Assembly: GCF_000685215.1 (NCBI RefSeq)
Contig: NZ_ARYJ01000003.1
Location: forward strand, 248,001 to 312,000
DNA: 64,000 bases
DNA from: Hyphomonas jannaschiana VP2
GTDB lineage: Bacteria > Pseudomonadota > Alphaproteobacteria > Caulobacterales > Hyphomonadaceae
Direction: 5' to 3'
Part shown: in pieces, positions 10,652-55,623 of the stretch
Layout of the letters: each line of letters starts with the position of its first letter
Position numbering within the stretch: the stretch's first letter is position 1
Program-made: the position numbers and the translations under genes
The notes under the pieces: generated by a model
Databases searched by the model: none
Told to the model about the DNA's origin: nothing
Seen by the model: the letters and a program-made list of their open reading frames with translations, nothing else

Positions 10652-11360
10652 CTCGCATCGCTTCGGTGATCTGTTCCAGGTCGTGGGCGAGAGAATTCCG
10701 GATAGCGCCGCTGTCGGATTGCAGCTCAAGCCCGGCAATTAGCTGCGGCGCTACGGAAAATTCCGGGTTGATCTCGAATGGCGCCAGCGCCGATTTCACG
10801 AGAGCCAGGTCGCTGTCCGAAAGCGGTGCTGCACTCATCAGCGTCAGGTTCCCGCCTTTCAACAGGGCGCCCCGTTCGGTCGGAGGCATTTTCTGGAGAG
10901 AGGCCACCAGCCGGCTGAGATAGCTGCCAACATCCTGAGGCTGCGCCGTCAGGGCGCGTTCGGCAATGGCGGCGGCGAGGTCCCGGACGCGGGCCATTTG
11001 CTGCGCCTTGTTTTCGTGGATATTGCGCTCGTGCGCGGCGTGCCCATCAGACACAATTTTCTCTGCTTCGGCGTGGGCTTTCTCCAGCAGGGCAAGTCGT
11101 TCGGCCTCCGCGTCCTTGCGCGCCTGGTCGAGAACGTCCTGACGGGCCGCAGCGGTTGCGTCCGCCTCGGCCTGCGCCTTCTGGGTCGCGGCCTTCGCTT
11201 CCGCCTTCGCTTTTTCGACCGCTTCCAGGGCTGCGTCAGTCTCAGCCTGCCGGCGTGCAATCACGTTCGCGACCGGCCGGAAAAGGAAGTATCTCAGGAT
11301 CGCCAGCAGCAGCAGGACGTTGACGATCTGGAAGCCGAAGGTGACCCAGTCGAAACTCAT
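10635..11360 (-). CDS. atpF: N-type ATPase b subunit
   Basis: At 241 residues this is longer than an ordinary b subunit (about 160). It has one N-terminal membrane helix ([21 protein letters not shown]) and then a very long Ala/Glu/Lys/Arg-rich coiled coil (roughly 35-150). The C-terminal 90 residues resemble the delta-like stator extension seen in N-ATPases, which lack a separate delta subunit. It is the peripheral stalk joining Fo to F1. It overlaps atpE by 4 bases. Confidence 0.88.
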
Positions 11361-16356: not shown

Positions 16357-16530
16357 ACACTCCCAAGCAGAAAAAGCTAAACTCGCCTCCGTACAAACCC
16401 GCACACACCGCGGGCTTTGGCGCCAGGACCGCGTCTCTGTTCCGGAACAGGGCAGATTTCAGGCCCGAAATCTGCCGCCATCTCCAATCGTCAAATGCAA
16501 CAGCACCCTTAGGCCCGATTTCCCTGATAA

Positions 16531-17110: not shown

Positions 17111-17127
17111 TGCACTTGAGTCAATAA

Positions 17128-35013: not shown

Positions 35014-35252
35014 TCAGGCCGCACTGGGAGCGCGCTGCTTGGCCACGCCACTCTCAGTGGCCTGGAACAAATTTCTGGAAAATCCGAGCATACAGGGCGA
35101 AGGCCGCTATCTATCGCTTTTGGCGGGATGAGCAGTCTCTCCGAATTTGCAGGTCTGCCGTTCGTTCTTGAAACAGATGAGCAGATCTGGAACCGCCTCA
35201 TCTCATAAAGCCTGTTCTTTTTCGGGGATGCTTTGGGGGTTGAAGGCATAAA

Positions 35253-35269
35253 ATTAGTAGGCTAACTAA
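35253..35269. promoter_or_regulatory. Shared CTAAC-type operator, site 1 (serine hydrolase promoter)
   Basis: ATTAGTAGGCTAACTAA, with inverted arms TTAGT/ACTAA, lies about 35 bases before the serine hydrolase gene. It is one of six sites matching the consensus ATAAGGCGCCTAACTAA. Confidence 0.65.
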
Positions 35270-35302
35270 ATGCTCCCGAGCGTGACATAGTGCGCTTGTA
35301 AT

Positions 35303-36610
35303 GTGCGGGAGCGGAATTCTGTGTTTGGATTTTTTAGGGGAGTCATGATCCCGGCTTTCGGCTTGGTCGTTGCCGGAATTCTGACAGGGTGCCAGATGGT
35401 CAGTAGCGACATGTCGGAACAGCCAGAGACCAGCCGACTAGACCCCGTTCAACTCTCCAGAATAAGCGAACATCTCGAAGCAAATTCGGCAGCACAATCA
35501 CGCGCCGGATATGTCGTTATCATCCGGAATGGCACAGGGGGTGAGTATGTGAAGGCGTTTGGAATGCGCGATATATCGGCTGGCGCGCCGATGGCGCTTG
35601 ATACGGAATTCCGTATCGCCAGCCTGACAAAGCCTGTCGTGTCGGCTGCGGTCATGCGTTTAGTAGAGCGGGGCGACCTGAGGCTGACAGACCCGGTCGT
35701 TCGTTACCTGCCGGAGTTCGCGCAGATGGAAGTAGGTGTCGGGCTTGCCGAAGATGGTACACTCCAGACCGAGCCTGCAAAGCGTGCGATCACGATCTAC
35801 GATTTGTTGACGCACACGGCCGGCCTCGGCGCTTCGGGACAGGCTGAGCTTCCTGCGAATGTGGTCTATGCCAAGCGCTATGCAGAGTTTTTCGAGCAGG
35901 AATCGCTCGCCGACGCGAGCAAATGGATCGCCAGTCTGCCGCTTGTCTTCCAGCCAGGAGAGGGCTGGGGATACAGCTTTAGCCTCGACGTGCTGGGTCG
36001 AATAATTGAAGTGAGAACGGGCAAATCCGTCGAAGATGCACTGGAGGAACTGGTGCTCTCACCGCTCGGGATGACGCATACTTATTACAATCGTGCAGGC
36101 ATTGACCGGTCCAATCTCGCGACCCTCTACATCTCAGACGCCGATGGCAAGCTTCAGCCCTTCGAGGATGCTGCGATCGATAAGATGCGGTTTCCCATGT
36201 CCGGTGGTGGACTCATCTCGACCGCCGGCGACTACATGAACTTCCTTGAAATGATGCGCCGCCGCGGTGAGGTAAATGGTGAGCAATTCCTGTCGCAGGC
36301 GTCGGTCGAAGCGATGACACGGAACGCATTGCCCGAGGCCATGGGGCCTATCCGCCTGGAACTCAACATGATGGGAGCGGGCTTCGGGCTTGGTTTTGGC
36401 GTTGTCAGTGAGGATCGAGGCATCCAGTCTCTACTTGCGCCAGGCGATTATTTCTGGGCGGGTGCCACCGATACGTTTGCCTTTGTGAGTCCAAGCCGCG
36501 ATATATCTGCAGTGATACTTTCTCAGTATTGGCCGAATGAGCGAACACGTGAGTGGGATACGCTCTACGACTTTGCTGACATGGCAAGCGCAGCCGTGGT
36601 CCAGCCCTGA
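35303..36610 (+). CDS. Lipoprotein serine hydrolase (class C beta-lactamase/EstB family)
   Basis: The 435-residue protein has a lipoprotein signal (hydrophobic run ending GILTGC) and the beta-lactamase-fold motif SxxK as SLTK, about 115 residues in. A GGGLISTAGDY segment follows; the Tyr motif appears as GYSFSLD rather than YxN. That is the family VIII carboxylesterase/D-aminopeptidase style, so an ester or peptide is a likelier substrate than a beta-lactam. The start is GTG 35303 or GTG 35321; ATG 35345 would remove the charged n-region. A CTAAC-type operator lies just upstream. Confidence 0.85.
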   Translation: MRERNSVFGFFRGVMIPAFGLVVAGILTGCQMVSSDMSEQPETSRLDPVQLSRISEHLEANSAAQSRAGYVVIIRNGTGGEYVKAFGMRDISAGAPMALDTEFRIASLTKPVVSAAVMRLVERGDLRLTDPVVRYLPEFAQMEVGVGLAEDGTLQTEPAKRAITIYDLLTHTAGLGASGQAELPANVVYAKRYAEFFEQESLADASKWIASLPLVFQPGEGWGYSFSLDVLGRIIEVRTGKSVEDALEELVLSPLGMTHTYYNRAGIDRSNLATLYISDADGKLQPFEDAAIDKMRFPMSGGGLISTAGDYMNFLEMMRRRGEVNGEQFLSQASVEAMTRNALPEAMGPIRLELNMMGAGFGLGFGVVSEDRGIQSLLAPGDYFWAGATDTFAFVSPSRDISAVILSQYWPNERTREWDTLYDFADMASAAVVQP

Positions 36611-36817
36611 TCCACATCTTCCCTGGTTTCGGATTGAGCGGGTGGGGTCCTTCCCATTCGAGCGGATTGTTCCGTTTCGGATAACTGGCGCTCTTCCTCA
36701 CAGGCGATATCCCTCGCAACAGCCTCATTAAAAAAATGATCTGACCCAATCGGACAGATTGACAAATAATAATAAGGAACCAAACTATAAGGATAATAAT
36801 AAATGGGAGGATAGAGT

Positions 36818-39172
36818 ATGAAACGAACCACAAAGGCTCGCCTCGGCTGGCGGCTGCTTGCTGCAACAGCCTTGGGGATATCGGGGTGGGGCCTGATCGC
36901 GTCAGCGCAAACCGCTGACGACGCCCCGGTCGCCGAATCGGAAGAAACATCGCGTATGGACGTCGTCCGGGTTACGGCACAGCGCCGGGAGCAGGATCTC
37001 GTAGATGTTCCGGTTGCCGTTACAGCCTTCGGCGCCAAGCAGCTCGAAGAGCGTGGGATAACCGACTACACACAAATCGCCAGCTCCGTACCGAACATGC
37101 AGTTCGAGGAGGTTCAGTCGCAGCGCAACCAGCGTATTATCATCCGGGGCATCTCGTCCGATACCCGTTTTGCTGGCTCAGAGTCGGCTGTTGGCGTGGT
37201 TGTCGACGGCGTCTCGCTCGCGGGTGTGGCAGGACTGACATTCGATCTTGCTGACATCGAGCGCATTGAAGTGCTTCGTGGTCCGCAGGGTACGCTCTAT
37301 GGCCGCAACACAGCCGCCGGGGTGATCAATGTGTTCACCACAAAGCCGGGCAACGAGTTCGAGGCAAGCGCGACGGCGGAGTACGGAAATTATGATCACA
37401 CGCTGCTCAAGGGATATGTCCGCGGCCCGCTGGTGAAAGACAAGTTCTATGCCAGCCTTTCGGCCATCAGCGTCGAGCGCGACGGCTACGAGACGCTGGC
37501 CGCGACAGGAGAGGACGTCAACACGCGGGATACCAAGGGCTTGCGCGGGCAGCTGCGCTGGACGCCAGCACCTGACTGGGACCTGCGCCTGATCGCCGAG
37601 TACCAGGAAGACGACTTTTCCCAGCAAAGAGGGCAGGATGATGCGCTGGAGCCCATCGATCGTGAGCTGACGAGTGTGCCCTACCGGCCGCTGGCAGACC
37701 GTGACATGCGGGGCTACTCTCTGACGGTCGACAAGGAGTTCGGGAAAGTTTCGGCCCGTTCGATCACCTCTCAACGCTCTTACACAACCCATGAACTGGA
37801 TTCGAATCTGGCTGTTGCCGGTCAGTCTTTCGTTGACCGTTTGAATGTCGAGGAGTCCAGTGAGTTTACTCAGGAATTCCAGATTAGTTCGGTTGGTGAT
37901 AATCGCATCGACTGGGTTGCCGGCGCTTTTTACCTGAATCAGCAGCTGACCTTCGACGGCCAGTATGATGTCGACATTGACGGCATCTACGGGCTGCTGT
38001 TCGGGCCGACGGCGCAACTGTTCGGCGCGCCGGGTAATCTGGCCGGCGATGTTCCATTTTTTGGCGGCGACCCTTGTCCGCTTCAGGCTCCCGCGTGCGT
38101 GGGCACGGTGCCGGCTGTCGTCAACTGGACGTTCAAGACCACGTCGCTTGCCGGTTTTGGGCAGGCTGGAATCGAACTGACTGACAGGCTGACGCTGGAT
38201 CTTGGCGCCCGGTATTCAAGCGAAAGCAAGGATTTCGTCTATGACTCGCTCGTCAATACGGCCATCCCTGGTTTGCCGGGCTTCATTCCGGATGGGGTTG
38301 TGTTCATTGCCGGCCGGGGAAATCCGGACTTCGGTGCCCCGCTTCCCTACACCGATACGATCGAGAATGACGTCTGGACCTCTCGCGTCGCGCTGACTTA
38401 CTCCGTGAACGATGAGAACAATATCTATGTCTCGGCGGCGCAAGGTTCAAAGTCCGGGACATTCTTTGCGAACATTCTCGGCATCAGCGATGGCAACAAT
38501 AACGGCATCAACGACAATGTCGAATTCCTGCGCGTGGAGCCCGAAACCTCGTGGAATTATGAGATCGGCGCGAAAGGGCGGCTGGGAATCTTTAACTATG
38601 CGGGTGCGATCTATTTCATCGACTACAAGGACCTTCAGACACAAAGGACGTTGCCGCTTCTGGCGTCGACGGTTCAGATCCTGGGCAATGCAGATGCGGA
38701 ATCCTATGGTGCGGAACTGGAGCTGAATGCCGAACTGACCGACAATCTCTCGATCGATTTCGGCCTTGGTTATAACGAGACCGAGTTCACAGACTATCCG
38801 GACTGTGCACCGATGACGGATTGTGACGGCAAGGAACTCGTCTATGCGCCGAACCTGACCTCGTCTGTGGGAATCAATTATGAGCGGTCCCTCGGCAACA
38901 GTCACAGGCTGTTCTCGCGGATTGGAGCAACCTATCGCGGTGAGCAGTACTACGATGTGACCAACAACCCGCTTTATCAGGGAAAGTCCGCGACGCTGCT
39001 GGATGCGACCATCGGGATCCAGTCTGAGACCGGAAACTGGTCTGTTGCTCTGTGGGGAAGAAACCTTGCGGACGAAGACTATGATGTCGGCAGGGCGCCG
39101 GACCAGATCGGGACCAATGTCACGCTCGGCGTGCCGCGCACATATGGTATCCGCCTCTCGGCGAAGTACTGA
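36818..39172 (+). CDS. TonB-dependent outer-membrane receptor
   Basis: The 784-residue receptor has a signal peptide (LAATALGISGWGLIASAQT) and a plug with VVRVTAQRREQDLVDVPVAV and RIEVLRGPQGTLYGRNTAAG. The barrel ends YGIRLSAKY. A GNNNGINDN loop near residue 560 resembles a Ca2+-binding loop. Its ATG follows GGGAGGA. The 207-base gap before it is AT-rich with TTGACA-like sequence near 36750, so it may have its own promoter, but it could be read through from the serine hydrolase gene. Confidence 0.93.
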   Translation: MKRTTKARLGWRLLAATALGISGWGLIASAQTADDAPVAESEETSRMDVVRVTAQRREQDLVDVPVAVTAFGAKQLEERGITDYTQIASSVPNMQFEEVQSQRNQRIIIRGISSDTRFAGSESAVGVVVDGVSLAGVAGLTFDLADIERIEVLRGPQGTLYGRNTAAGVINVFTTKPGNEFEASATAEYGNYDHTLLKGYVRGPLVKDKFYASLSAISVERDGYETLAATGEDVNTRDTKGLRGQLRWTPAPDWDLRLIAEYQEDDFSQQRGQDDALEPIDRELTSVPYRPLADRDMRGYSLTVDKEFGKVSARSITSQRSYTTHELDSNLAVAGQSFVDRLNVEESSEFTQEFQISSVGDNRIDWVAGAFYLNQQLTFDGQYDVDIDGIYGLLFGPTAQLFGAPGNLAGDVPFFGGDPCPLQAPACVGTVPAVVNWTFKTTSLAGFGQAGIELTDRLTLDLGARYSSESKDFVYDSLVNTAIPGLPGFIPDGVVFIAGRGNPDFGAPLPYTDTIENDVWTSRVALTYSVNDENNIYVSAAQGSKSGTFFANILGISDGNNNGINDNVEFLRVEPETSWNYEIGAKGRLGIFNYAGAIYFIDYKDLQTQRTLPLLASTVQILGNADAESYGAELELNAELTDNLSIDFGLGYNETEFTDYPDCAPMTDCDGKELVYAPNLTSSVGINYERSLGNSHRLFSRIGATYRGEQYYDVTNNPLYQGKSATLLDATIGIQSETGNWSVALWGRNLADEDYDVGRAPDQIGTNVTLGVPRTYGIRLSAKY

Positions 39173-39196
39173 GCGTTCCTCTCGTTCAGAACCTTC

Positions 39197-39234
39197 AGCT
39201 GGCTGCGCCATAACCGACGCAGCCAGCTATTTTC
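39197..39234 (+). terminator. Rho-independent terminator after the TonB gene
   Basis: A perfect 11-base stem AGCTGGCTGCG/CGCAGCCAGCT (39197-39207, 39218-39228) with a 10-base loop is followed by ATTTTC. The remaining stretch to 39425 shows no gene. Confidence 0.85.
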
Positions 39235-39425
39235 TGAACACAACGAACTTCAGCAGCGTGCGGGAAGGTCAAAAACACTCATCATCAGGGCCAGCCGCCA
39301 TGCTATGGCAGCGTGGATCGGGGAGATTTGTGACCAAGTTCCACATCAAGCAGTCCCATGGAATGAAAGGCCTGAGTATCGGACATTGATGTCTGGCAAA
39401 GAGTCTTTCTAGACTAGGAGCAGCA

Positions 39426-40370
39426 TTAATATCCAGATGCCCGGTCTACCACAGGCGATGGTGTGCCGCCGCTTTCGATGGTTTCGATGATCACTTGCAT
39501 CCGATCGGCAACTGCTTCCGCAAGGGCCGCGCTGGCGCAATGCGGCGTCACGGTCACCTTCGGGTGAGACCAATATGGATGGGACGCAGGAAGGGGCTCG
39601 ATAGCGAACGCGTCAAGTGTGGCTTCGCTAATGTGTCCGGAATTCAGGGAGGCCATCAGGTCTTCGTCCCTGATGATGCCGCCTCTTGATGCGTTGATAA
39701 TGGAAGCCCCAGGCGTCAGTAGGCTGAGGAAATTCTGATCGATAAGGCCGCTCGTGTCTGGTGTGAGCGGTAACAGACTGACAAGGACATCGCATTCGGA
39801 AAGAAAGGCTGGCAGTTCAGACCGACCCGCGAAGGCAGGAAAGTCGCAATCGGGTTTCGGTGTTCGTGACCAGCCTCGTACCCTGAAGCCGACCGCGGAA
39901 AGATACCCGGCCGCATGGGTGCCTAACCTGCCGAGACCGAGGATGCCGACAGTCACTTCTGTTGCGGCCGGACAGACGAACAGTTTCCATTCCGACCTCG
40001 CTTGCGCTGCCTGAATTTGTCTTAGTCGCCGCAGATGATTCAGGGCATGCTGTACGATGTACTCGCTCATTCTTTGCGCCATATCTGGCTGTATCATGCG
40101 TATGACTGGAACGTCAGGCAGGGCATCATCAGCAAGCACGTGCTCAACCCCTGCGCCGACGGGCATGATGGCTTTCAGGTTGGGAAAACGTGCGAGATAG
40201 CCATGCGGTGGCTGAAGTACGAAAGCGTAGGTAATGTCTTCCGGTACGGGCGCGTCTTCAGGTGCAAAGAAGCGGGCTTGCGGGAGCCTTTCCCTGAATG
40301 TGTCCAGATAGTAGTCGCGCCACTGATCCGGCAGGACGCAGAGAATGGAAATTGCGCGGTGTGTCATCAT
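39426..40370 (-). CDS. D-2-hydroxyacid dehydrogenase (GhrA-like glyoxylate/hydroxypyruvate reductase)
   Basis: The 314-residue protein has the NAD-binding GILGLGRLGTHAAGYL and WSRTPKP (the Arg suggests NADPH). The catalytic Arg lies in NASRGGIIRDEDL and the catalytic His in TVTPHCAS. The overall pattern, with a short GVEHVL segment and a C-terminus without a long tail, fits GhrA. ATG 40370 follows AGGAAG. It is 32 bases downstream of the alpha/beta hydrolase gene and surely co-transcribed, so it may reduce an oxoacid released by that pathway. Confidence 0.85.
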   Translation of the reverse strand: MMTHRAISILCVLPDQWRDYYLDTFRERLPQARFFAPEDAPVPEDITYAFVLQPPHGYLARFPNLKAIMPVGAGVEHVLADDALPDVPVIRMIQPDMAQRMSEYIVQHALNHLRRLRQIQAAQARSEWKLFVCPAATEVTVGILGLGRLGTHAAGYLSAVGFRVRGWSRTPKPDCDFPAFAGRSELPAFLSECDVLVSLLPLTPDTSGLIDQNFLSLLTPGASIINASRGGIIRDEDLMASLNSGHISEATLDAFAIEPLPASHPYWSHPKVTVTPHCASAALAEAVADRMQVIIETIESGGTPSPVVDRASGY

Positions 40371-40402
40371 CGGGCTTCCTGAATAGACAGCGTGAACTGG
40401 GA

Positions 40403-41296
40403 TCACGCTCTTGCGCGTGAGGGGCAGAACCTTGCAATCACGGCTTCTATTTTCTGCCGGATCAATTGCGGGTTTTGCACACCGTAAAGATGCCCTCCTG
40501 GCCACAGATCGAATGGGGTTCCACAATAGGAGGGGCCTTGGACAGTCAGTCGGTTTAGCTGGTCATATCGGCCGAGAACCGGGAAGACGTTTGAGTTGTC
40601 CGCTTTTTTCCACGCTTCAGTAAAGTTAAGCCGTGAGCGTAGCATTTCAGGGTTCCGCCGGGCCTTCGCGGCTGCCTTCACGGTCGTTAAGAAGATCTCC
40701 GCGTGAGCTGTGCCTGAAACGAAAGGGATGTAGGCATCGGCCGTATTGTAAATGATGTGGTGGCGTCCGGAGACAAAGCCGCCAAGGCTGTAGCCTGCCA
40801 CGACTTTGCAGGCGGCCCCGGTGAGTTCCGTTGACTGTAGCAGGGCTTCTGTCAGTTTCACGACACAGGCAATCATCGCGACGTAATTATTGAAATCCAC
40901 AAAGCGGTCTCGCAATTCTTCCTGTGTGGTCTGGAAGGGGGTTTTCACCGCGATCACGGTCGTTCCTGATGAGGAACCGGAGGGGTAGGCCGCGCTGATT
41001 GTGTGGTCGAATGGGATTTCGCCGCCACCCTGGTGATAGATAACGACTGGGGCATCTGCGCCCGCATCGTGAATCACGCGCAGGCCCGCCTCCATGAAGC
41101 CTGCGAGGCCATGTGCGGGCACTTTGATGAAGCTTCCATCTCGTTCCAGCTTCGGGAGGTCCAGCGAAATGGCATCCAGGTGATCCAGGAAGGCCGCAGA
41201 TTGGGCGCTTCCGCTGAAGAACGGCTTTCCAAGGAGATTGATAATGGCGAGAAACAGCTTGTCCTTCAGAATATGCGTATTCAATGGATACCCCAA
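40403..41296 (-). CDS. Alpha/beta hydrolase
   Basis: The 297-residue protein has a nucleophile elbow VAGYSLGGFVSG (Ser) and an oxyanion region VVIYHQGGGEIPF. Its His motif is WPGGHLYGV near the C-terminus. There is no signal peptide. The start appears to be TTG 41296; TTG 41284 is also possible. The CTAAC-type site 2 sits directly upstream, and the MarR gene diverges from it, the usual layout for a regulator and its target. The substrate is unknown. Confidence 0.78.
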   Translation of the reverse strand: MGYPLNTHILKDKLFLAIINLLGKPFFSGSAQSAAFLDHLDAISLDLPKLERDGSFIKVPAHGLAGFMEAGLRVIHDAGADAPVVIYHQGGGEIPFDHTISAAYPSGSSSGTTVIAVKTPFQTTQEELRDRFVDFNNYVAMIACVVKLTEALLQSTELTGAACKVVAGYSLGGFVSGRHHIIYNTADAYIPFVSGTAHAEIFLTTVKAAAKARRNPEMLRSRLNFTEAWKKADNSNVFPVLGRYDQLNRLTVQGPSYCGTPFDLWPGGHLYGVQNPQLIRQKIEAVIARFCPSRARA

Positions 41297-41302
41297 TAAT
41301 AG

Positions 41303-41319
41303 TTTACTACCTAACTATA
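41303..41319. promoter_or_regulatory. Shared CTAAC-type operator, site 2 (hydrolase/marR divergent promoter)
   Basis: GTTTACTACCTAACTAT, within a TAGTT...AACTA inverted repeat (41301-41318), lies between the divergent hydrolase and MarR genes. This site ties the motif family to the MarR protein. Confidence 0.65.
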
Positions 41320-41414
41320 TGTGCGGGCAAATATTTGCAATTTCTGAATCTCCCATTTAACTGAGAAATACGATAAGAATTGCGTATTGCAGCGGATTTA
41401 ATGAGAAAATCGAT

Positions 41415-41975
41415 ATGAGTGACCTTCTGGTACCTAAGGACCTGCCCGCGCTGGATGAAATCAGCCAGCAAATTCGGGATTATCCGCAACTGGATGCTCT
41501 GGCGATCTTCACGATGAACGAGCTTTTGCGGACGGCCCGGACCCTGGAGCTCGAGCTGGACAAGGACCTTTCAGCCCACAATTTGACGATGGGGCGTCAT
41601 GTTACGCTCTGGTGCGTGGCTGTGCTGGGCGCGGATGAGGGGATTACGCCTGCTGAAATATCCGAGCAGCTGGGTGTTACCCGGGCGACGATAACCGGCT
41701 TGCTGGACGCTCTGGAAAAGGAAAAGCTGATCATCCGGCAGCGCCGGGAAGACGATCGGCGTAAAATCTCAGTCTTCCTGACGGCGAAAGGGCTCAAGAA
41801 GGTCGAGCAGGTCTATCCACCCCATTACCTCAACATTACGCAGGCAATGAAGGTGCTCAGCAAGGCAGAGAAGATGCAGCTGATCGGTCTCCTGCGTCGA
41901 TTGCGTGCTGCGGCGCCCGCTCTGTCCAAGCCGCAGACGAAGCCCATGCGTCCGAAATCTCGCGCGGCAGGCTGA
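41415..41975 (+). CDS. MarR-family transcriptional regulator
   Basis: The 186-residue protein has the winged-helix core GITPAEISEQLGVTRATITGLLDALEKEKLIIRQRREDDRRKISVFLTAKG (about 75-125). The DxRxxxV-type wing motif is present as DDRRKISVFLT. MarR dimers bind palindromes of 16-20 bases and usually repress; small aromatic ligands release them. The six-site motif set, one in its own promoter, makes it the best candidate to control this whole region. Confidence 0.92.
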   Translation: MSDLLVPKDLPALDEISQQIRDYPQLDALAIFTMNELLRTARTLELELDKDLSAHNLTMGRHVTLWCVAVLGADEGITPAEISEQLGVTRATITGLLDALEKEKLIIRQRREDDRRKISVFLTAKGLKKVEQVYPPHYLNITQAMKVLSKAEKMQLIGLLRRLRAAAPALSKPQTKPMRPKSRAAG

Positions 41976-42117
41976 TATAAATCCACGTAGCAGGAACGGA
42001 CGGACCGGCCAAGCATTGCTCGACCGGAAAGCCGTTGATTCGCCTTCTTTGGAACTTTCTGTTTCGGGCACAATTTTCGACCTGGGGCATATTGCCTATG
42101 GAAATACGTTGCGAATA

Positions 42118-42134
42118 AAAGTTAGGAGGCTTAT
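42118..42134. promoter_or_regulatory. Shared CTAAC-type operator, site 3 (cupin promoter)
   Basis: On the minus strand the site reads ATAAGCCTCCTAACTTT, matching the consensus at 13 of 17 positions. It is 58 bases upstream of the cupin start. Confidence 0.6.
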
Positions 42135-42192
42135 TAATATGCCGGACCGTCCATGCGACGGCACCTGATACGAGCAGTGGGAGGACAGACCT

Positions 42193-42678
42193 GTGGCAAA
42201 ACTTGATGACGGCAGCTTTTTGTATGCGATGGATGACAAGCCCTGGTACCGGTTCATTCAAAATCCGGATGATGCAATCAGACTGCTTCACGTAGATGAA
42301 ACAGCTCAGCAGGTTGTCTTTGTACAACGCTTCAGCGCCGATACTCGCCACCACATGCACACCCATCACTGCACGGCGATCGCCTATACACTGTCGGGCA
42401 CCTGGAAGTATGATGATACCGAAATTCCAGAAGGTACGCTGGCTTATGAACCTTACAAATCCACCCACACGCCGATGACTTCCGATGGGAATGTTGCCGA
42501 CGTTCTGGTGATCCTGACAGCGATCAATAAGGATGGGCGTTTTCTGGAACTACATGGTGAGGATGGCGAATCCTTCGAGCTAAATCTTGAAGTGTTCAAG
42601 CTCATGGATTCCATGAGTCCGGAAGAATTCCTCGACTTCCAGAGAGCTCAGGCGGGCGCTGGTGGAAGCGCAGATTGA
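42193..42678 (+). CDS. Cupin-domain protein
   Basis: The 161-residue protein has a cupin core with a His-rich metal motif HHMHTHHCTAIAYTLSG and a second motif EPYKSTHTP with a further His. The single-domain size and motif resemble ChrR-type cupins and small dioxygenases (2,4'-dihydroxyacetophenone dioxygenase-like). An Fe(II)-dependent oxygenase role is plausible given the aromatic-type regulator. The start is GTG 42193 after GGGAGGACAG. Confidence 0.8.
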   Translation: MAKLDDGSFLYAMDDKPWYRFIQNPDDAIRLLHVDETAQQVVFVQRFSADTRHHMHTHHCTAIAYTLSGTWKYDDTEIPEGTLAYEPYKSTHTPMTSDGNVADVLVILTAINKDGRFLELHGEDGESFELNLEVFKLMDSMSPEEFLDFQRAQAGAGGSAD

Positions 42679-42746
42679 CGATCTGGAGCGTGTACCGGAA
42701 GAGGCCAATCGACCCTTCTGAATGGGGCGACGGGTCCCTTCCTCCG

Positions 42747-42762
42747 CTCCGCCATGGCGGAG
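42747..42762. terminator. Perfect 16-base palindrome after the cupin gene
   Basis: CTCCGCCATGGCGGAG is fully palindromic and can fold only with a tight loop. It lies in the gap before the small membrane protein. A weak terminator is the simplest reading. Confidence 0.4.
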
Positions 42763-42836
42763 AAGGTTGGTTTGAAGGGGCTCTGTCGAAGGTCCGCTTT
42801 CAAACCCATTTATCACTCATAGCAGGCAAGTAGAAC

Positions 42837-43097
42837 ATGGAACCAACAACTCTGTCCTGGATCATTGTCGTGGTCACAGGGTCCGTTGTCGCAAAATTTT
42901 TAGGGCTTCTGATGAAGCGCCGTGACCCAGGCCCGGTGGCTGGGCCCGTGTTGGGCGTCATCGGAGCCGTCGCCGCCTGGCAGGGCGGAACGCTACTGGG
43001 ACTGATCGATCCGGCGAATACCGTCATGGCAGGCCTTTCCGCCGCAGCGGGCGGCGCAGTCCTGTACGTTGCTGGTGCCCTGTTTAAAGGCCGCTAA
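42837..43097 (+). CDS. Small membrane protein, GlsB/YeaQ/YmgE-like
   Basis: The 86-residue protein has three hydrophobic segments and a Gly-rich centre (PVAGPVLGVIGAVAAWQGGTLLGLI). It ends in YVAGALFKGR, like transglycosylase-associated GlsB/YeaQ proteins. Those are small stress-related membrane proteins of unclear role. The match is by overall pattern, so the family call is tentative. Confidence 0.65.
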   Translation: MEPTTLSWIIVVVTGSVVAKFLGLLMKRRDPGPVAGPVLGVIGAVAAWQGGTLLGLIDPANTVMAGLSAAAGGAVLYVAGALFKGR

Positions 43098-43127
43098 CAG
43101 GGCAGGGCTGGGCCGTCGCGCGGCTCG

Positions 43128-43709
43128 TCACCCGCGTCCCTCCCGCCAGGCTTTGAGCGCTTCATTGTTGGGATCCGGACGGCTGGAAAGGTCAACCGGA
43201 GGATCTTCAGGCGAGATGTCAAATGTCTCGATCAGACGGGTCTGCATAAGGTAAAAGCCGATTGCCTGCACAAGCTCGACAAGCTCTCTCAGGGGAAGTC
43301 TCTGGCGAAAATACTCGAACGTTTCGGGGGAAGGGCGCGGGCCGGCGGCAAGTTCTTCGCCCATCCGGGCTGCCATGCGGTGATGTTCTGACAAGGTTTC
43401 GCAGGAGCTTCCCTGCCGGGCCGAAAGGATCAGTTCTTCAGTCAGGCCGACGCCGCGCGAGACGCTCTCGAGAAGGATGCGCTCGTATTTCGAGCCAACA
43501 ACAGTGCACATGCGGATGAGCGCCACCTGACGCGTTACGGGGTCCAGGGTACCGCGGTTAAGCACGCTGTCTGAGAGCCGCAGAACACTTTCCATGTTTC
43601 CCGGCGCGTGGGCCATCACTTTAATGATGTTTATCTTTGGCGAGACATTGATCATGTTTTGCACACGCGGATCGAGACCTTCAGTTTCAGGATAAGGAAT
43701 ATTGGTCAT
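43128..43709 (-). CDS. Carboxymuconolactone decarboxylase/AhpD-family protein
   Basis: The 193-residue helical protein has the CMD core (VLRLSDSVLNRGTLDPVTRQVALIRMCTVVGSKYE) and a region CETLSEHHRMAARMGEELAAG. The classic CxxC peroxidase pair is not present, so a peroxidase role is unlikely. A lyase or isomerase role in lactone/aromatic breakdown is more in keeping. ATG 43709 follows GGGAGG. It diverges from the GPH transporter gene, with operator site 4 between them. Confidence 0.82.
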   Translation of the reverse strand: MTNIPYPETEGLDPRVQNMINVSPKINIIKVMAHAPGNMESVLRLSDSVLNRGTLDPVTRQVALIRMCTVVGSKYERILLESVSRGVGLTEELILSARQGSSCETLSEHHRMAARMGEELAAGPRPSPETFEYFRQRLPLRELVELVQAIGFYLMQTRLIETFDISPEDPPVDLSSRPDPNNEALKAWREGRG

Positions 43710-43744
43710 GGGTGCCTCCCGTAAAAGTTTCTTGCGACCATAAA

Positions 43745-43761
43745 GTAAGGAGGCTAACAAT
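43745..43761. promoter_or_regulatory. Shared CTAAC-type operator, site 4 (CMD/transporter divergent promoter)
   Basis: GTAAGGAGGCTAACAAT matches the consensus at 12 of 17 positions. It is 36 bases from the CMD-family start and 130 from the transporter start, so it could control both directions. Confidence 0.6.
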
Positions 43762-43891
43762 AGTGGGAATTCCTGGCAGGACAAGGTGCAATTTTCTTTG
43801 GAAACCTGCAGCTGACGTATCAGTCGAGCGCCGTAGCTTGTGGCCGGATTAGGGCGGACGGGAAGAGAGCGGTTGCACAGGAGGTCTACGG

Positions 43892-45298
43892 GTGAGCAGT
43901 CAGAAGCCAATAACAATACTCGCAGTGATCGCGCTTGCGGCACCGTCCCTTATATCTCAGTTCATCAGTGCACCATTTATTGGCGTTGTGCCGGGTCTGT
44001 ATGCAAAGTATGCAGGTCTGTCCATGGCGTCGATTTCCGCTGTAGTCCTGTTTTCGCGTATCTTTGACGCGATTACTGACCCGGTTATCGGTCTTCTTTC
44101 TGACCGATACAAAAGGGAATGGGGAACGCGGAAGCCCTGGCTCGTTTTTGGTTTTGTCGTTACGGCGCTTGCCGCCTGGTTCGTGTCTTCGCCCCCGGAA
44201 AGTTCCGGACTCATTCATTTCGCTGTATGGAGTCTTGTTTTCTATTTTGGCTGGACCATGATCGAGGTGCCGCACAACGCGTGGGCTGCCGAAATCACGG
44301 AAAACTACAATCGCCGTACCACCGTATTTTTCGCGAAGACCATGTTTGCGGCCGTTGGGGCATTTGTCTTTGCTCTTGTGCCACTTTTGCCTCTGTTTGA
44401 GACAACTGAGTTCACGTTCGAGACAATGCGTGTGGCGGCCGTGATATTCGTTCTGCTGGGTCTGGTCTGCGTCATTTCTGCTGTTCGCTTCGCCCCAAGT
44501 GGTGAGTCGCTGCCGCGGCAGAGCGGCATGAAGCTCGGGCCGGAATTCCTGTTCTCCATGTTTGAAAATGGACCGTTCGCGCGCTTCATTTTTGCTTTCG
44601 TCATTAGTGGTCTCGCGGCAGGCATGAACGGAACGCTGCAGTTCGTGTTCCTCGATTCCTATCTTGGTCTTGGTGAGCACGTGTCCGTTGCGCTTGGCAG
44701 CGGTGTTTTTCTCGGCATCTTCGGCATCGCGGGTTGGTATCTATTGATGCTGCGTATGCAGAAGCATCGCGCCTGGGCAATCTCATTGGCGCTGGGCGCT
44801 GGATGGATCCTCGCACCTGCGCTCCTCGCGCCGGGCGAGCAGGCGTTGATCCCCTATATGGTAATGTTCGCCGGCATGGTTCTCTCCATCGGTGCGGGCC
44901 TGATCGCGCCTTACACATTGCTGGGAGACATCATCGATTTTGACCGCTGGAAAACGGGGGAGGACCGTGCCGGCGCTTACTTCGCGGTGTTCCTGTTCGC
45001 AGTGAAACTGAATACCGCCCTTGGAGGGGCCGCTGCCTTCTTCCTGCTTGACCTGACCGGCTATGACGCCGCGGCCGGAAGCCAGAGCGCGGTTGCGAGT
45101 CTCGGTATACGTCTGGCATTTGCGATCGTGCCGGGGATCTTGTTCCTGGTGGGATGCGCCGTCATGTGGACCTATCCGCTGACCCGCGCGCGGCACCAGG
45201 AGATTCTCGCTGAACTGGAAGTGAGGTCCGCCGACCTTGCGAAGGATGGCCGAAAGGAGAAAGCTGTCGCCGGAAGTGCCGCGCCGGCGACGAGCTGA
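43892..45298 (+). CDS. GPH-family (MelB-like) sugar/cation or glycoside symporter
   Basis: The 468-residue protein has about twelve membrane helices and the GPH motif LFSRIFDAITDPVIGLLSDR (cation-binding Asp residues). MIEVPHNAWAAEI and LLGDIIDFDRWKTGEDRAGAYFA follow in the second half. The family imports glycosides or other polar compounds with H+ or Na+. The start is GTG 43892 after AGGAGGT. Here it probably brings in the compound degraded by the MarR-region enzymes. Confidence 0.85.
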   Translation: MSSQKPITILAVIALAAPSLISQFISAPFIGVVPGLYAKYAGLSMASISAVVLFSRIFDAITDPVIGLLSDRYKREWGTRKPWLVFGFVVTALAAWFVSSPPESSGLIHFAVWSLVFYFGWTMIEVPHNAWAAEITENYNRRTTVFFAKTMFAAVGAFVFALVPLLPLFETTEFTFETMRVAAVIFVLLGLVCVISAVRFAPSGESLPRQSGMKLGPEFLFSMFENGPFARFIFAFVISGLAAGMNGTLQFVFLDSYLGLGEHVSVALGSGVFLGIFGIAGWYLLMLRMQKHRAWAISLALGAGWILAPALLAPGEQALIPYMVMFAGMVLSIGAGLIAPYTLLGDIIDFDRWKTGEDRAGAYFAVFLFAVKLNTALGGAAAFFLLDLTGYDAAAGSQSAVASLGIRLAFAIVPGILFLVGCAVMWTYPLTRARHQEILAELEVRSADLAKDGRKEKAVAGSAAPATS

Positions 45299-45307
45299 GA
45301 TAAACTT

Positions 45308-46045
45308 TCAGTCTGTCTTGTAGAGCGTCGACTGGTAATACCGGACACATGCATAAAGCAGGATCATGTTATACAGTGTGCCTCCTATCGCGTAGATAAA
45401 GCCAGGCATCTGCGCGCCGGAGACGAAAGCGTCGAATGACATATAGCCCCAGCCAGATGGCGAAAGCAGGAAGAAATAGCGATAAACGGCATCTTCCGGG
45501 ATAAACTTCAGGGCAAGGGGGGAGATGATGATGAAGCTGATGAATTTGAACAGGGCGAGCGCTTCAACCTTATTGGCGGCATAGGACGCGACGCCAAGCG
45601 ACGTGACCGGGCCCATCAATGCAAGGCTGGCAGCCACGACAACGAGTTCACTATAAGTAATGGGCAGGGCGTGCCAGGTGATGTTCATCACAAGGACGGT
45701 CAGAAGCGGCCAGAGCAGAAGATAGATGGTCATCAGAACCGTGCGGGTCAGCAGCATAGCCGATGGCTGGATTGGCGTAATCGCGAGCGCGCTGCGTACG
45801 CCGGTATCTTTCTCGTCTACCATCAGCAGGCCGAACAGGAACCCAAAGCCGCTTGGGCCAGTCATTACAGACATGATGATCAGGAAGGGAAACCATTCCA
45901 CCATCGTGGCATTGTCGTGATTGAAGTAACCGACAACTGTGATGATCGCCACAACGACCGCGGACAGGCCGACATTGATGAGCATGACGCCGTCGCGCAT
46001 GATTCCGCGCGCATCCAGTGAGATGATCGAGGCAAAGGCACGCAT
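45308..46045 (-). CDS. ABC transporter membrane subunit (ABC-2 type)
   Basis: The 245-residue protein has six predicted membrane helices and an ABC-2-type pattern with a cytoplasmic segment LLMVDEKDTGVRSALAITPI. ATG 46045 has a strong AGGAGG. It is the third gene of the exporter operon, 16 bases after the other membrane gene. ABC-2 exporters of this small size work as a heterodimer; the substrate is unknown. Confidence 0.82.
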   Translation of the reverse strand: MRAFASIISLDARGIMRDGVMLINVGLSAVVVAIITVVGYFNHDNATMVEWFPFLIIMSVMTGPSGFGFLFGLLMVDEKDTGVRSALAITPIQPSAMLLTRTVLMTIYLLLWPLLTVLVMNITWHALPITYSELVVVAASLALMGPVTSLGVASYAANKVEALALFKFISFIIISPLALKFIPEDAVYRYFFLLSPSGWGYMSFDAFVSGAQMPGFIYAIGGTLYNMILLYACVRYYQSTLYKTD

Positions 46046-46061
46046 GATGAACCTCCTGGCC

Positions 46062-46778
46062 TTACCGGCCTTCTGAGATGATGGATTGCTTGAATTCGCG
46101 AAGGGCCCACACCCAGCCAAGGGCGATCCAGAAAACCTGGTATCCAAGCGCATATCCCCATTCTGCAGCAGAAAGGAGGCTGGGGTCTGCGGCGCCATTG
46201 AACGCCATCAGCATGGCGTAGGAGGGCAGCAAGGCAAACGCCCAGCGCGCGGGCTCAGGGATGAGGCCGAAATGCGCCAGGAGCGGTGTGAACAGTATGG
46301 TTGTGGAAAACAGGAGAATGATCATCAGCCCGTTCATGGAGGGCGCGCGCGCCACAAGGGCAAGGCCCAGTAGAACGGCAACCGTATTTGAGAGGATGAG
46401 CGACAGGATCATCAGCGGCCAGTCAAAGCTGCCGTCCAGGGCAAACCAGGCGACTGCAAGACCCGAGAGGATTCCGTTAACAGACATGGTCAGCGTTTTT
46501 GACGCCACATAGACGCTTGGTGGAGATGGGGTGACCCCGAGGGCCGACAGGACCCGGCTGGCTTTTTCCATCATGACGATGGCGCCAATGAAGCTGAGGC
46601 CGATCAGGGCGGGATCGGTGAAGATGAAGAAGGAGGCGGCCGGAACAGGTAGCGGATCGACCGGCAGGAGCAGAACGAACACAATGATCGCCGCCGTACT
46701 GATGACGTTGGCGACATAGATATAGTTGCGTGCCTGCAGGGTTATGTCCCAGCGCAGCATGTTGATGAGCTGGCTCAT
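46062..46778 (-). CDS. ABC transporter membrane subunit (ABC-2 type)
   Basis: This 238-residue, six-helix membrane protein resembles the next one in topology (MMEKASRVLSALGVTPSPPSVYVASK is the matching cytoplasmic loop). It overlaps the ATPase gene by 4 bases, so the three-gene exporter is translated together. Confidence 0.82.
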   Translation of the reverse strand: MSQLINMLRWDITLQARNYIYVANVISTAAIIVFVLLLPVDPLPVPAASFFIFTDPALIGLSFIGAIVMMEKASRVLSALGVTPSPPSVYVASKTLTMSVNGILSGLAVAWFALDGSFDWPLMILSLILSNTVAVLLGLALVARAPSMNGLMIILLFSTTILFTPLLAHFGLIPEPARWAFALLPSYAMLMAFNGAADPSLLSAAEWGYALGYQVFWIALGWVWALREFKQSIISEGR

Positions 46779-47683
46779 GGAGCCACCTCTTCGCTGTCTG
46801 CTTCAAGGTTCACGCCGGTGACTTCAACGAACACCTGATCAAGCGTTGCTTCCTGGCTGTGGATGGTCTGAATTTCGTGGTCCCGAAGGGCGCTCTGGAA
46901 GGAGGCATTCGCGCCCAGGCCGTCCAGCGGGAAGACCTCATTGTGCGGCTGTCCGTTCGAATTCAGGTAGGTAACCTTCACGTTGCGTTGGCCGTAGCGC
47001 GCCTTGAGGGCCTCCACCGAATCGAGCGCCGCCATGTTGCCTCGCACCATGAAGCCACACCGGTCGCACAGCTCTTCCACATCGAACATGTTGTGCGTGG
47101 TCAGCACGACGGTCTTTCCCATGGCCTGCTGGTCGCGGATGATTTGCTTGACGATGCGGGCATTGACGGGGTCGAGGCCGGATGTTGGTTCGTCAAAAAA
47201 GAGAAGATCAGGATCGTGAAGCAGGGCACGGATGAAATTCAGGCGCATCATCATGCCTTTGGAATAGTCGGAGACACGCACATCTGCTGCTTTTCCCAGG
47301 CCAACCATCTCCATAAGTTCCATGGGATCACGAGTCTTGCTCTTGTAGAGCGACGCGAAGAAGCGGAGGTTTTCTGCGCCGGTCAGGCGCAGGAAGTGAT
47401 TTGGTAATTCAAACCCGACGCCGATCCGTTCGTAATAATCTGCTCCCCAGCTCTCGATCCCCCGGTCGAGGATTGTCACGGAGCCGCTCTGCAGCCGCCG
47501 GAACTGGTGTGTCAGAACCTTCTGGATGGTGCTTTTGCCCGCACCGGAAGGGCCGAGCAGGCCGAACACCTCTCCCTTGCGCACGGCAAAGGAAACGCCG
47601 TTGACTGCGGGCTTCGTGGTTTTCGGGTAGGTATAGACAAGATTGCGGACATCAATGATGTCGGCGCCGGTATGAGGTTCCAT
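46775..47683 (-). CDS. ABC transporter ATP-binding subunit
   Basis: The 302-residue protein has the Walker A GPSGAGKST, a signature VSDYSKGMMMRLN (atypical YSKGM in place of LSGGQ), the Walker B LLFFDEPTSGLDPV and the H-loop TTHNM. I prefer ATG 47683 (MEPHTGADII) to ATG 47776. Operator site 5 lies only 4 bases before 47776 and would then have no room for a leader. It drives the two downstream membrane subunits. Confidence 0.88.
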   Translation of the reverse strand: MEPHTGADIIDVRNLVYTYPKTTKPAVNGVSFAVRKGEVFGLLGPSGAGKSTIQKVLTHQFRRLQSGSVTILDRGIESWGADYYERIGVGFELPNHFLRLTGAENLRFFASLYKSKTRDPMELMEMVGLGKAADVRVSDYSKGMMMRLNFIRALLHDPDLLFFDEPTSGLDPVNARIVKQIIRDQQAMGKTVVLTTHNMFDVEELCDRCGFMVRGNMAALDSVEALKARYGQRNVKVTYLNSNGQPHNEVFPLDGLGANASFQSALRDHEIQTIHSQEATLDQVFVEVTGVNLEADSEEVAP

Positions 47684-47780
47684 CCCTTTATCCTTGTTAT
47701 CCTTGGAGAGCTTTTTCGAATTCGGCGTGATCGCCAGAACTCCTGTTGTTCCGCCGGAGCGGCCTGAGTGACTCATATTG

Positions 47781-47797
47781 ATATGGCGCCTAACGAA
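47781..47797. promoter_or_regulatory. Shared CTAAC-type operator, site 5 (ABC exporter promoter)
   Basis: ATATGGCGCCTAACGAA matches the consensus at 15 of 17 positions. It sits about 100 bases before the preferred ATPase start. Confidence 0.65.
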
Positions 47798-47826
47798 TAT
47801 GTCAACAGACAGCAGACCCGTTTGGC

Positions 47827-48630
47827 CTAACTTGTGCCGACCACGCCGCCATCGCTGGTTATGACCTCGCCGACGACGTAAGCGCCGGCGCGCGAACTGA
47901 GGAAGATGGCCAGGCCAGCAATATCTTCCGGTGTGCCGACGCGTCCGCGGGGATTGGCGTCACCGAACGTTTTCCAGAGCGTGTCGTCCATACGTCCGCC
48001 AAATCCGGATGCGAGCATTTTGGTGGGGTAGGCTCCGGGTGCGATTGCGTTGCAGTTTATGTGTTCTCGCGTGAGGTGTGCAGCGAGAAAGCGTGTCAGG
48101 TGATGCACAGCCGCTTTTGAAGCTCCGTAGGAAAATACGTCGAAGCGGGAGGATTTCAGGCCATCAACCGATCCAATATTGATGATGCGCGCCGGATCAT
48201 GTTCCGTGCCGGCAGCGCGGAGTAGAGGGAGGAGCTTCTGAATAAGGAAAAAGACGCTCTTGACGTTGACGTTCATGACCTTGTCCCAGCCCGCTTCCGG
48301 GAATTCATCAATTGAGCCGCCCCAGGAGGCGCCGGCATTGTTGACGAGAATATCCAGCCCCGACTCTCGCTCCGCCATCTCGGCTGCCAGGTGCCGGACG
48401 CCGTCAAGACCAGACAAGTCGGCAGGTATGGGAATGCACTCCCCGCCATAGGTTTCCTCCAATCGCGAGGCGGTCTCGGCGCAGGCGCTTTCATTGCGGG
48501 ATGAAATGTAGACTTTGGCATCAGCGGCCAGGAAACCGGCAGCGATCATCTCTCCTATGCCGCGTGATCCGCCGGTTACCAGAACAGTCTTTCCGGTGAC
48601 CGAGAAAATGTCCTCGAAGTTGGGGCGCAT
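47827..48630 (-). CDS. Short-chain dehydrogenase/reductase
   Basis: The 267-residue classical SDR has the cofactor motif TGGSRGIGE, NNAGASWGG and the catalytic Ser-Tyr-Lys (INIGSVDG, then YGASK). C-terminal PGAYPTKM follows. The Arg in SSRNE after the second strand favours NADP(H). The likely substrate is a ketone or alcohol made in the same regulon. It is preceded by operator site 6. Confidence 0.9.
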   Translation of the reverse strand: MRPNFEDIFSVTGKTVLVTGGSRGIGEMIAAGFLAADAKVYISSRNESACAETASRLEETYGGECIPIPADLSGLDGVRHLAAEMAERESGLDILVNNAGASWGGSIDEFPEAGWDKVMNVNVKSVFFLIQKLLPLLRAAGTEHDPARIINIGSVDGLKSSRFDVFSYGASKAAVHHLTRFLAAHLTREHINCNAIAPGAYPTKMLASGFGGRMDDTLWKTFGDANPRGRVGTPEDIAGLAIFLSSRAGAYVVGEVITSDGGVVGTS

Positions 48631-48947
48631 CCCTTGTCTCCCTGACGCACACGTTTCCTGTTCCCCCCTGGTGTTCCGATTGATGAAGGCTCGGCGTGGG
48701 GGCTGCTGTGCTTATGATCGAATAAGATAAGGCGCCTAACTAAATAGTCAATTCAATATCTTCTTCGGTGTGGATAACCCTTTGAAGGGAACGGGCCTTG
48801 AGGTGATCTGTCTTGGTATGTGGCGTAGAACGATGGGGGAAACGCTCTTCAGAGGCTTAAAGGCCTCCCCGCAGATCTTGGAGGACGCGGTGTCTGAGAG
48901 CCGTTTGTCTACATGGACAAAGACTCATTCAAATCCGTCTGACGTGC
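48631..48947. other. Intergenic stretch holding operator site 6
   Basis: The 317 bases between the SDR and TetR genes contain operator site 6 and AT-rich promoter-like sequence near 48720-48770. I see no gene. Confidence 0.6.
48727..48743. promoter_or_regulatory. Shared CTAAC-type operator, site 6 (SDR promoter)
   Basis: ATAAGGCGCCTAACTAA is the best copy, with a near-perfect inner palindrome TAAGGCGCCTAA. It is 97 bases before the SDR start. Confidence 0.7.
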
Positions 48948-49667
48948 CTACTGGTCAGCTTTTCCGGGTGGATTACAGACTTCGCGAAAGCCTGCAGCCA
49001 TGAATTTCGCCATTCGTTCCTTGATGGATTCGAAGTCATCGGATTTGCAAATACCGCCAGACAGTTTGTCGATACGTCCTGTGCGTGCCAGCGTGAGCAG
49101 AAGTGCACCACTCACGAAGTGGTATCCCCAGAAAATGTCTTCTTCCGAGCACTCCGGCATCGCCTTCTTCAGGAGATCGATCAGTCGAAGGACGACCGGG
49201 TCGAAATGCTCGTCCATCATTTCGGCGCCCCATTCGGGCGTGTTTGCGATCTGCGCGCTGAGAGCGCCGTAATTTTTCCAGCCTGTGCCACCCTGGCTGT
49301 AAAGGTCTAGGTCGGTGTCGAGAAAGGCCCGCAGGGCGCCTTCGACCGTCGGTTTCCCGTTCGCGGATTTTTCGTAAGCGTCCAGGGCCTCGATCCGGGT
49401 TGTGCTCGTGATGACGGCACGACGGCCGAATGCCTTGTCGAGGAGTTGTTTCTTGTCCTTGAAATAGTAGTGCAGCAGCGTGTGGTGGACACCTGCGCGT
49501 TTGGCCACGTCTTTAAGGGTCACGCCGTGGAAGCCGTTTTTCGAGAAAAGGTATTCGGCTTCGTCGAGTATGAGTTCCATCGTCTCCGCCCGTTGTTCGG
49601 CTTTCGACATTCGACGACGGTTGTTCGTTTGCTTGGTCACTACGGTATTCACTTGTCTCGGTTCCAT
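48948..49667 (-). CDS. TetR-family transcriptional regulator
   Basis: The 239-residue protein has an HTH with GFHGVTLKDVAKRAGVHHTLLHYYFKDKKQLLDKAF (about 45-80) and a C-terminal TetR ligand domain. It is divergent from the TonB/esterase operon. The ATTCAC palindromes before that operon and before the MFS gene are its likely targets (inference). The ligand is probably a fatty acid or acyl-CoA, because such regulators in this gene context usually sense those. Confidence 0.9.
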   Translation of the reverse strand: MEPRQVNTVVTKQTNNRRRMSKAEQRAETMELILDEAEYLFSKNGFHGVTLKDVAKRAGVHHTLLHYYFKDKKQLLDKAFGRRAVITSTTRIEALDAYEKSANGKPTVEGALRAFLDTDLDLYSQGGTGWKNYGALSAQIANTPEWGAEMMDEHFDPVVLRLIDLLKKAMPECSEEDIFWGYHFVSGALLLTLARTGRIDKLSGGICKSDDFESIKERMAKFMAAGFREVCNPPGKADQ

Positions 49668-50019
49668 TTTATCAATGGTGTAACGTGTTTTCAGTCAACC
49701 TTCACACTGAGTTGCACGGACCGGAAGCATTGGGGGCTTCTTTCTGATTAGCCTTGGCGTCGCCAGTTGCATCCAATTTCCGGAAGCACGGTCTGCCACC
49801 TGAAGGAAATTGACCCAACTTTGGCGGAGCGTGCCGCAGGGCCCGCTCGCGAGCCGTCTTTCTTCTGTTTCTTTCCGAGGGGGCCGCAAATCCGGAGGCA
49901 AAGTCACGCGATTTACTTTTTTCATTCACACGAGAGTGAATTTTATTGACATGCGCTTCCAACTGGTCTCCAAGTGCCCCCCGAAAGGCGACCAAACGTC
50001 TTCGCCTAGGGAGGAAAAT
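49668..50019. other. Divergent promoter region of TetR and TonB genes
   Basis: The 352-base region holds the ATTCAC palindrome (49924-49941) and, less convincingly, a TTCACACTGAGT half-match near 49701 by the TetR start. There is no gene. Confidence 0.6.
49924..49941. promoter_or_regulatory. TetR-type palindrome ATTCAC-N6-GTGAAT
   Basis: Perfect 6-base arms with a 6-base spacer (ACGAGA) lie about 79 bases before the TonB start. It matches 60420-60437 at 14 of 18 positions. Confidence 0.7.
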
Positions 50020-52296: not shown

Positions 52297-52307
52297 GCAG
52301 ACCGGAG

Positions 52308-55612: not shown

Positions 55613-55623
55613 GGGGAGTGACC

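Follow-up and report, generated by a model that had tools for sequence, protein, structure and literature searches.

We consider it highly likely that a 13.5-kb island within the window (the whole 64,000-nucleotide stretch of Hyphomonas jannaschiana VP2 DNA analyzed here) is the local regulon of one YetL-like MarR repressor, which would act through seven operators and be released by a ligand. Computation from genome sequences established which sites form the operator set, that this set is confined to the cluster and conserved, and that it is tied to this MarR subfamily. The island comprises nine transcription units: those of a serine hydrolase, a TonB receptor, an alpha/beta hydrolase with a 2-hydroxyacid dehydrogenase, marR, a cupin, a carboxymuconolactone-decarboxylase-like (CMD) protein, a GPH symporter, an ABC exporter, and a short-chain dehydrogenase/reductase (SDR). 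The initial annotation had joined genes on both strands of this island into one MarR regulon. This proposal is supported, but its gene list was incomplete, and a seventh site adds the TonB receptor.

Operator motif and its distribution in the genome

All six copies of a 17-base motif reported in the initial annotation were present, each in a promoter position. Its consensus (ATAAGGCGCCTAACTAA) captures a motif that the six sites share, but they are not near-identical copies, and no more than two of them come within three mismatches of it. The true operator is the dyad TATAGTTAG-N4-CTAACTATA, one half of which is usually weaker. The dyad common to the six sites was (T/A)(A/T)GTTAG-N4-C(T/A)(A/T)A(C/T)T, and alignment in one orientation gave (T/A)AGTTAG-N4-CTAA(C/T)T; several of the sites were also grouped by a repeat search. 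The strong half reads GTTAG, and the weaker half reads CTTA, CTAA, or CATA.

Operator 1 lies in the serine hydrolase promoter (35249-35270, minus strand; GTTAGCCTACTAA; 14.1 bits). When a matrix was built from five of the window sites, a further strong match was found immediately in front of the gene for the TonB receptor, at 36771-36786. This is operator 2 (36768-36790, minus strand; GTTTGGTTCCTTA; 16.6 bits), with a TTGACA -35 element directly upstream. Operator 3 (41298-41319, minus strand; TATAGTTAGGTAGTAAACTATT; 12.6 bits) is located in the divergent promoter of the alpha/beta hydrolase gene and marR, where the initial annotation had indeed placed one copy. One half of this operator is degenerate: the half TATAGTTAG is intact, while the second half keeps its outer arm only, in all three genomes that carry the site. 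Judging from this form, operator 3 may be a weaker, autoregulatory operator. A reading of the site as a variant with a 3-base spacer at 41303 was rejected, since alignment with the corresponding site of a relative (L073, described below) brought the outer arms into register and left the inner half degenerate. Operators 4 and 5 are found in the cupin promoter (42117-42138, plus strand; GTTAGGAGGCTTA; 14.0 bits) and in the divergent promoter of the CMD and GPH symporter genes (43741-43762, minus strand; GTTAGCCTCCTTA; 14.1 bits). Operator 6, in the ABC exporter promoter (47777-47798, minus strand; GTTAGGCGCCATA; 13.9 bits), is spanned by TTGACA-N16-TATCAA, and operator 7, in the SDR promoter (48723-48744, minus strand; TAGTTAGGCGCCTTATCT), is spanned by TTGACT-N16-TATCTT and is the best site (16.8 bits).

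The strict core GTTAGNNNNCTWA had only four occurrences in the 3.64-Mb genome, each of them inside the cluster. Thirty other genomes of the genus, which lack any orthologue or close homologue of the MarR protein, contained ~1.9 matches each (~0.5 per Mb), a rate at which ~0.007 matches are expected in 13.5 kb. A genome-wide scan was carried out with profile R1, built from 19 sites, at E ≤ 10. Seven matches were obtained, the six already reported and the one at 36768-36790, all between 35.2 and 48.8 kb of the window. Because the training set of R1 included the sites of the window, recovery of those sites is circular, and the informative results are their exclusiveness and two held-out sites in another genome (see below). 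Many equally good matches in coding DNA, which the initial annotation had held would speak against a regulon, did not appear: the scan yielded nothing beyond the seven. As every match in the genome lies within the regulator's own cluster, the regulon is strictly local.

In six of the nine promoters, the TTG of a -35 element begins 10-12 bases ahead of the operator's 16-base core (p of about 8e-5 against the local TTG frequency), and a count by eye across three genomes found TTG at that spacing in 14 of 25 promoters. A candidate -10 element overlaps the operator edge at the CMD gene and, in the relatives, at the hydrolase gene. Most promoters have the operator positioned in the -35/-10 spacer, which makes steric repression by promoter occlusion, with release by a ligand, likely.

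The proposed YetL-like regulator

The proposed regulator is encoded by marR (41415-41975, plus strand), a predicted repressor of 186 amino acids. Its winged-helix MarR domain matched PF01047 (1.7e-12; 47.4 bits against a cut-off of 24.6), and the closest solved protein was YetL of Bacillus subtilis (7wze, 2.7e-17). The similarity extends over the full length, including the N-terminal segment (residues 8-161 against 4-156 of YetL), and the two proteins share a layout with a KDLP-like N-terminal segment and an AT(I/M)TGL recognition helix, although they are only about 29% identical. Like YetL, this MarR has an operator dyad beside its gene: TAGTTAG-N4-CTAACTA stands in its own divergent promoter at 41298-41319, with one half intact and the outer arms of the other retained. 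In a genome encoding a YetL 100% identical to the solved chain (153 residues compared), TAGTTAGGCGCCTAACTA was found beside yetL, and we take it to be the operator mapped for YetL, reportedly by Hirooka et al. in 2009. Among papers other than the primary YetL report, none of those searched printed the dyad.

The dyad was then sought without a preset motif. This MarR protein was aligned with five relatives and YetL, and the alignment retrieved 80 loci from other species; most belong to Cyanobacteria, Verrucomicrobiota, Methylophilaceae, and Archangium, and one to Brevibacillus. All dyads with 4-base arms and spacers of 0-12 bases (3,328 in total) were counted in the marR promoters of these loci. 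TTAG-N4-CTAA ranked first, being present in 63 of the 80 promoters against 0.61 expected. A second profile, R2, was built from 57 distant operators only, none from the window. At E ≤ 10, it matched this genome only at operator 1, one of the seven, found three places in the cluster of the genus relative G004, and gave no match in three control genomes of the genus lacking this MarR. Only operator 1 was recovered because the other sites have a degenerate second half (CTTA, CATA). Among MarR loci, the strict core was nearby in five of the six with full-length similarity (L008-L013), and no strict core match was detected near those MarR genes of the order whose similarity is only partial (L014-L035).

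The motif is not specific to one MarR: in genome G034, a MarR that belongs to another subfamily and has a distinct recognition helix also lies near several TTAG-N4-CTAA dyads in a TonB/MFS/CMD cluster. This cluster (L190, G034:C32:10000-29999), the second in the genus to be linked to a MarR, has dyads at contig positions 16430, 21290, 21309, 31000, and 31118, and encodes the MarR (L190:5211-5723), a TonB receptor, two MFS transporters, a CMD protein, a glyoxalase, and a CoA-transferase. It may be a parallel multi-operator regulon.

YetL is a flavonoid-responsive MarR repressor of yetL/yetM (PMC10458429). It controls one divergent FAD monooxygenase, whereas the present MarR has seven predicted operators over an island for uptake, breakdown, and export. 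Here the gene divergent from marR encodes the alpha/beta hydrolase and not an FAD-dependent monooxygenase (yetM), which sets this protein apart from YetL orthologues proper. In Verrucomicrobiota, Methylophilaceae, and Cyanobacteria, the promoters of YetL-like marR genes also contain TTAG-N4-CTAA, but the neighbors of these genes, judged from sequence, differ: RND-type efflux genes, small SnoaL-like or CBS-domain proteins, and other families. In the Verrucomicrobiota loci L087-L152, marR bearing the same dyad in its promoter is followed by genes resembling RND efflux adaptors and pumps, which suggests a toxin-export role for the subfamily. FerC, DesR, CouR, and HpaR are local MarR proteins that control aromatic catabolism and are released by a compound of the pathway (PMC10458429, PMC8481569). 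They resemble the present MarR in lying inside a catabolic cluster, but are not its closest sequence relatives. PheR of Sphingobium was also considered as a relative and ruled out, as it is an IclR repressor.

Conservation of the island and alternative explanations

MarR orthologues with 80-90% identity were found in two other genomes, with the same cluster and with operators at the corresponding promoters. One of these, G004, is the sole other genome tested in the genus with a MarR orthologue (80%). Its cluster is syntenic from the serine hydrolase through the SDR, with proteins 68-83% identical, and every promoter matching an operator promoter of the window carries an operator. Operators 1 to 7 correspond to sites at 11302, 12778 (weak), 19024, 19797, 23715, 27684, and 30142, respectively. 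In the other, locus L073 of Hyphomonadaceae CC_bin33 (MarR 90%), sites were present at the hydrolase/marR (4532), cupin (5340), and CMD/GPH (9260) promoters, the first of these having the same degenerate form as operator 3 and as its G004 counterpart. On contigs C69 and C184 of the same genome (G062), R1 blindly recovered two sites outside its training set, upstream of the orthologues of the SDR (79%; C69) and the serine hydrolase (72%), the genes behind operators 7 and 1.

The G004 cluster also contains insertions that the window's island does not have, encoding a nitronate-monooxygenase-like protein, two acyl-CoA dehydrogenases, and an AMP-dependent ligase (L065:16137-17108, L066:419-2750, and L066:7739-9331). 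An operator pair at 17126/17144 precedes the extra nitronate-monooxygenase-like gene, and at the equivalent place L073 has a 323-codon frame with an operator. A survey of the order (398 genomes) found orthologues of MarR and close orthologues of the CMD protein in the same three genomes, from two genera; one of these, G731, is apparently the L073 genome, as its contig and position are identical. The regulator and a structural gene therefore travel together and are rare. Just past the SDR end of the G004 island is a transposase with an IS240-type DDE domain (L066:10463-11167). With the transposase in G004 and the island in three of 398 genomes, horizontal transfer of the island is possible.

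These data also bear on whether another regulator binds the sites. The TetR gene at 48948-49667 (PF17939, PF00440) is only 200 bases from operator 7, and TetR regulators are common in catabolic clusters. The 40-kb G004 region, however, has no TetR homologue and yet keeps all operators, and across phyla it is this dyad that characterizes the promoters of YetL-like marR genes; control by this or another regulator is thus improbable, and the TetR protein was rejected as the regulator. Beside the island, 48948-57276 contains this TetR gene, a second TonB receptor, two carboxylesterases, and an AMP-dependent ligase, with no operator, and is probably a separate TetR-controlled catabolic unit.

Still less probable is that the motif is a shared core-promoter element, such as a sigma-factor site. 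It overlaps the -35/-10 region in most promoters, as such an element would, but it is a dyad, its orientation relative to the gene varies, it has no further occurrence in the genome, it is absent from control genomes lacking this MarR, and it adjoins marR genes in other phyla. Least credible is an origin of the copies as relics of one duplicated sequence or as chance AT-rich similarity, since, for all their degeneracy and common AT-rich flanks, the similarity among them stops at the dyad, the consensus gave 0.02 matches in shuffled sequence, and the operators retain their positions in relatives whose proteins are 68-83% identical. The two orthologous clusters, the blind recovery in G062, and the top-ranking dyad of the 80 marR promoters support the assignment of the motif to the MarR made in the initial annotation.

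Genes of the island and proposed mechanism

The serine hydrolase (35303-36610, plus strand, probable start 35345; PF00144, 1.7e-62) has a beta-lactamase fold and a lipoprotein-like N terminus, and its G004 orthologue is 73% identical. It is followed by the TonB-dependent receptor (36818-39172, plus strand; PF00593/PF07715; 83% in G004). On the minus strand, the alpha/beta hydrolase (40403-41284, start TTG at 41284) had no match in Pfam or NCBIfam. Its GYSLGG nucleophile elbow is invariant in relatives (67-70% identical), and its predicted structure was of low confidence (pLDDT 50, three-sequence alignment). The downstream gene of this unit encodes the 2-hydroxyacid dehydrogenase (39426-40370, minus strand; PF02826, 3.4e-45; 68% in G004). 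The ChrR-type, dioxygenase-like cupin (42193-42678, plus strand; PF12973, 3.2e-12) gave weak PDB and fold matches to 3ebr, 3cjx, and 2,4'-dihydroxyacetophenone dioxygenase, with a low-confidence model (pLDDT 53, three-sequence alignment). Its fold search pointed weakly to cupin dioxygenases, and its resemblance to 2,4'-dihydroxyacetophenone and acetylacetone dioxygenases is slight. A small frame after the cupin gene (42838-43098; MEPTTLSWIIVVVTG..., read by eye) apparently encodes a membrane protein and sits where G004 has the acyl-CoA dehydrogenases.

The CMD-like protein (43128-43709, minus strand; 82-84% in relatives) matched PF02627 at E 0.0043, below the curated cut-off. Plasmid records searched for relatives of the cupin and CMD proteins yielded none that were useful. 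The remaining genes encode a GPH-family cation symporter (43892-45298, plus strand; PF13347, 1.7e-62; TIGR00792, 1.6e-46), an ABC exporter (45308-47776, minus strand; PF00005, PF24686), and the SDR (47827-48630, minus strand; PF13561, 3.7e-51; 76-79% in relatives). The exporter consists of an ATPase (46775-47776), a permease (46062-46778), and a second permease (45308 to about 46050), which are 75-80% identical in G004 with gene order kept. This gene set looks like one for outer-membrane uptake, ester hydrolysis, oxidation, and export of a hydrophobic compound.

Binding by MarR, repression, ligand release, and the nature of the ligand are inferred here from sequence. In the proposed mechanism, a MarR dimer would bind TATAGTTAG-N4-CTAACTATA in seven promoter regions, mainly within the -35/-10 spacer, and block RNA polymerase. 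The ligand, probably a hydrophobic or aromatic compound entering through the TonB receptor, or its breakdown product, would free the repressor, so that uptake, hydrolysis, oxidation, and export would come on together. The weaker operator between marR and the hydrolase gene, with one half damaged, would allow basal expression of both. As there is one repressor gene with seven operators and none elsewhere in the genome, the uptake, export, and breakdown genes are very probably switched on together by one chemical signal.

Local MarR control is already a known kind of regulation, and the island is a new example that assigns one switch to nine transcription units. We tentatively suggest, as one possibility among others, that the island encodes an undescribed uptake and degradation pathway for a plant- or alga-derived aromatic or ester compound, sensed by its YetL-like repressor. 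If so, a detoxification switch known from Bacillus would have been recruited as the master switch of a mobile catabolic island. The compound releasing this MarR is probably the substrate or a product of the pathway and would offer a handle on the substrate. From Bacillus to Cyanobacteria, Verrucomicrobiota, and Alphaproteobacteria, the operator TAGTTAG-N4-CTAACTA is the mark of one MarR subfamily, whose regulons can therefore be read from genomes.
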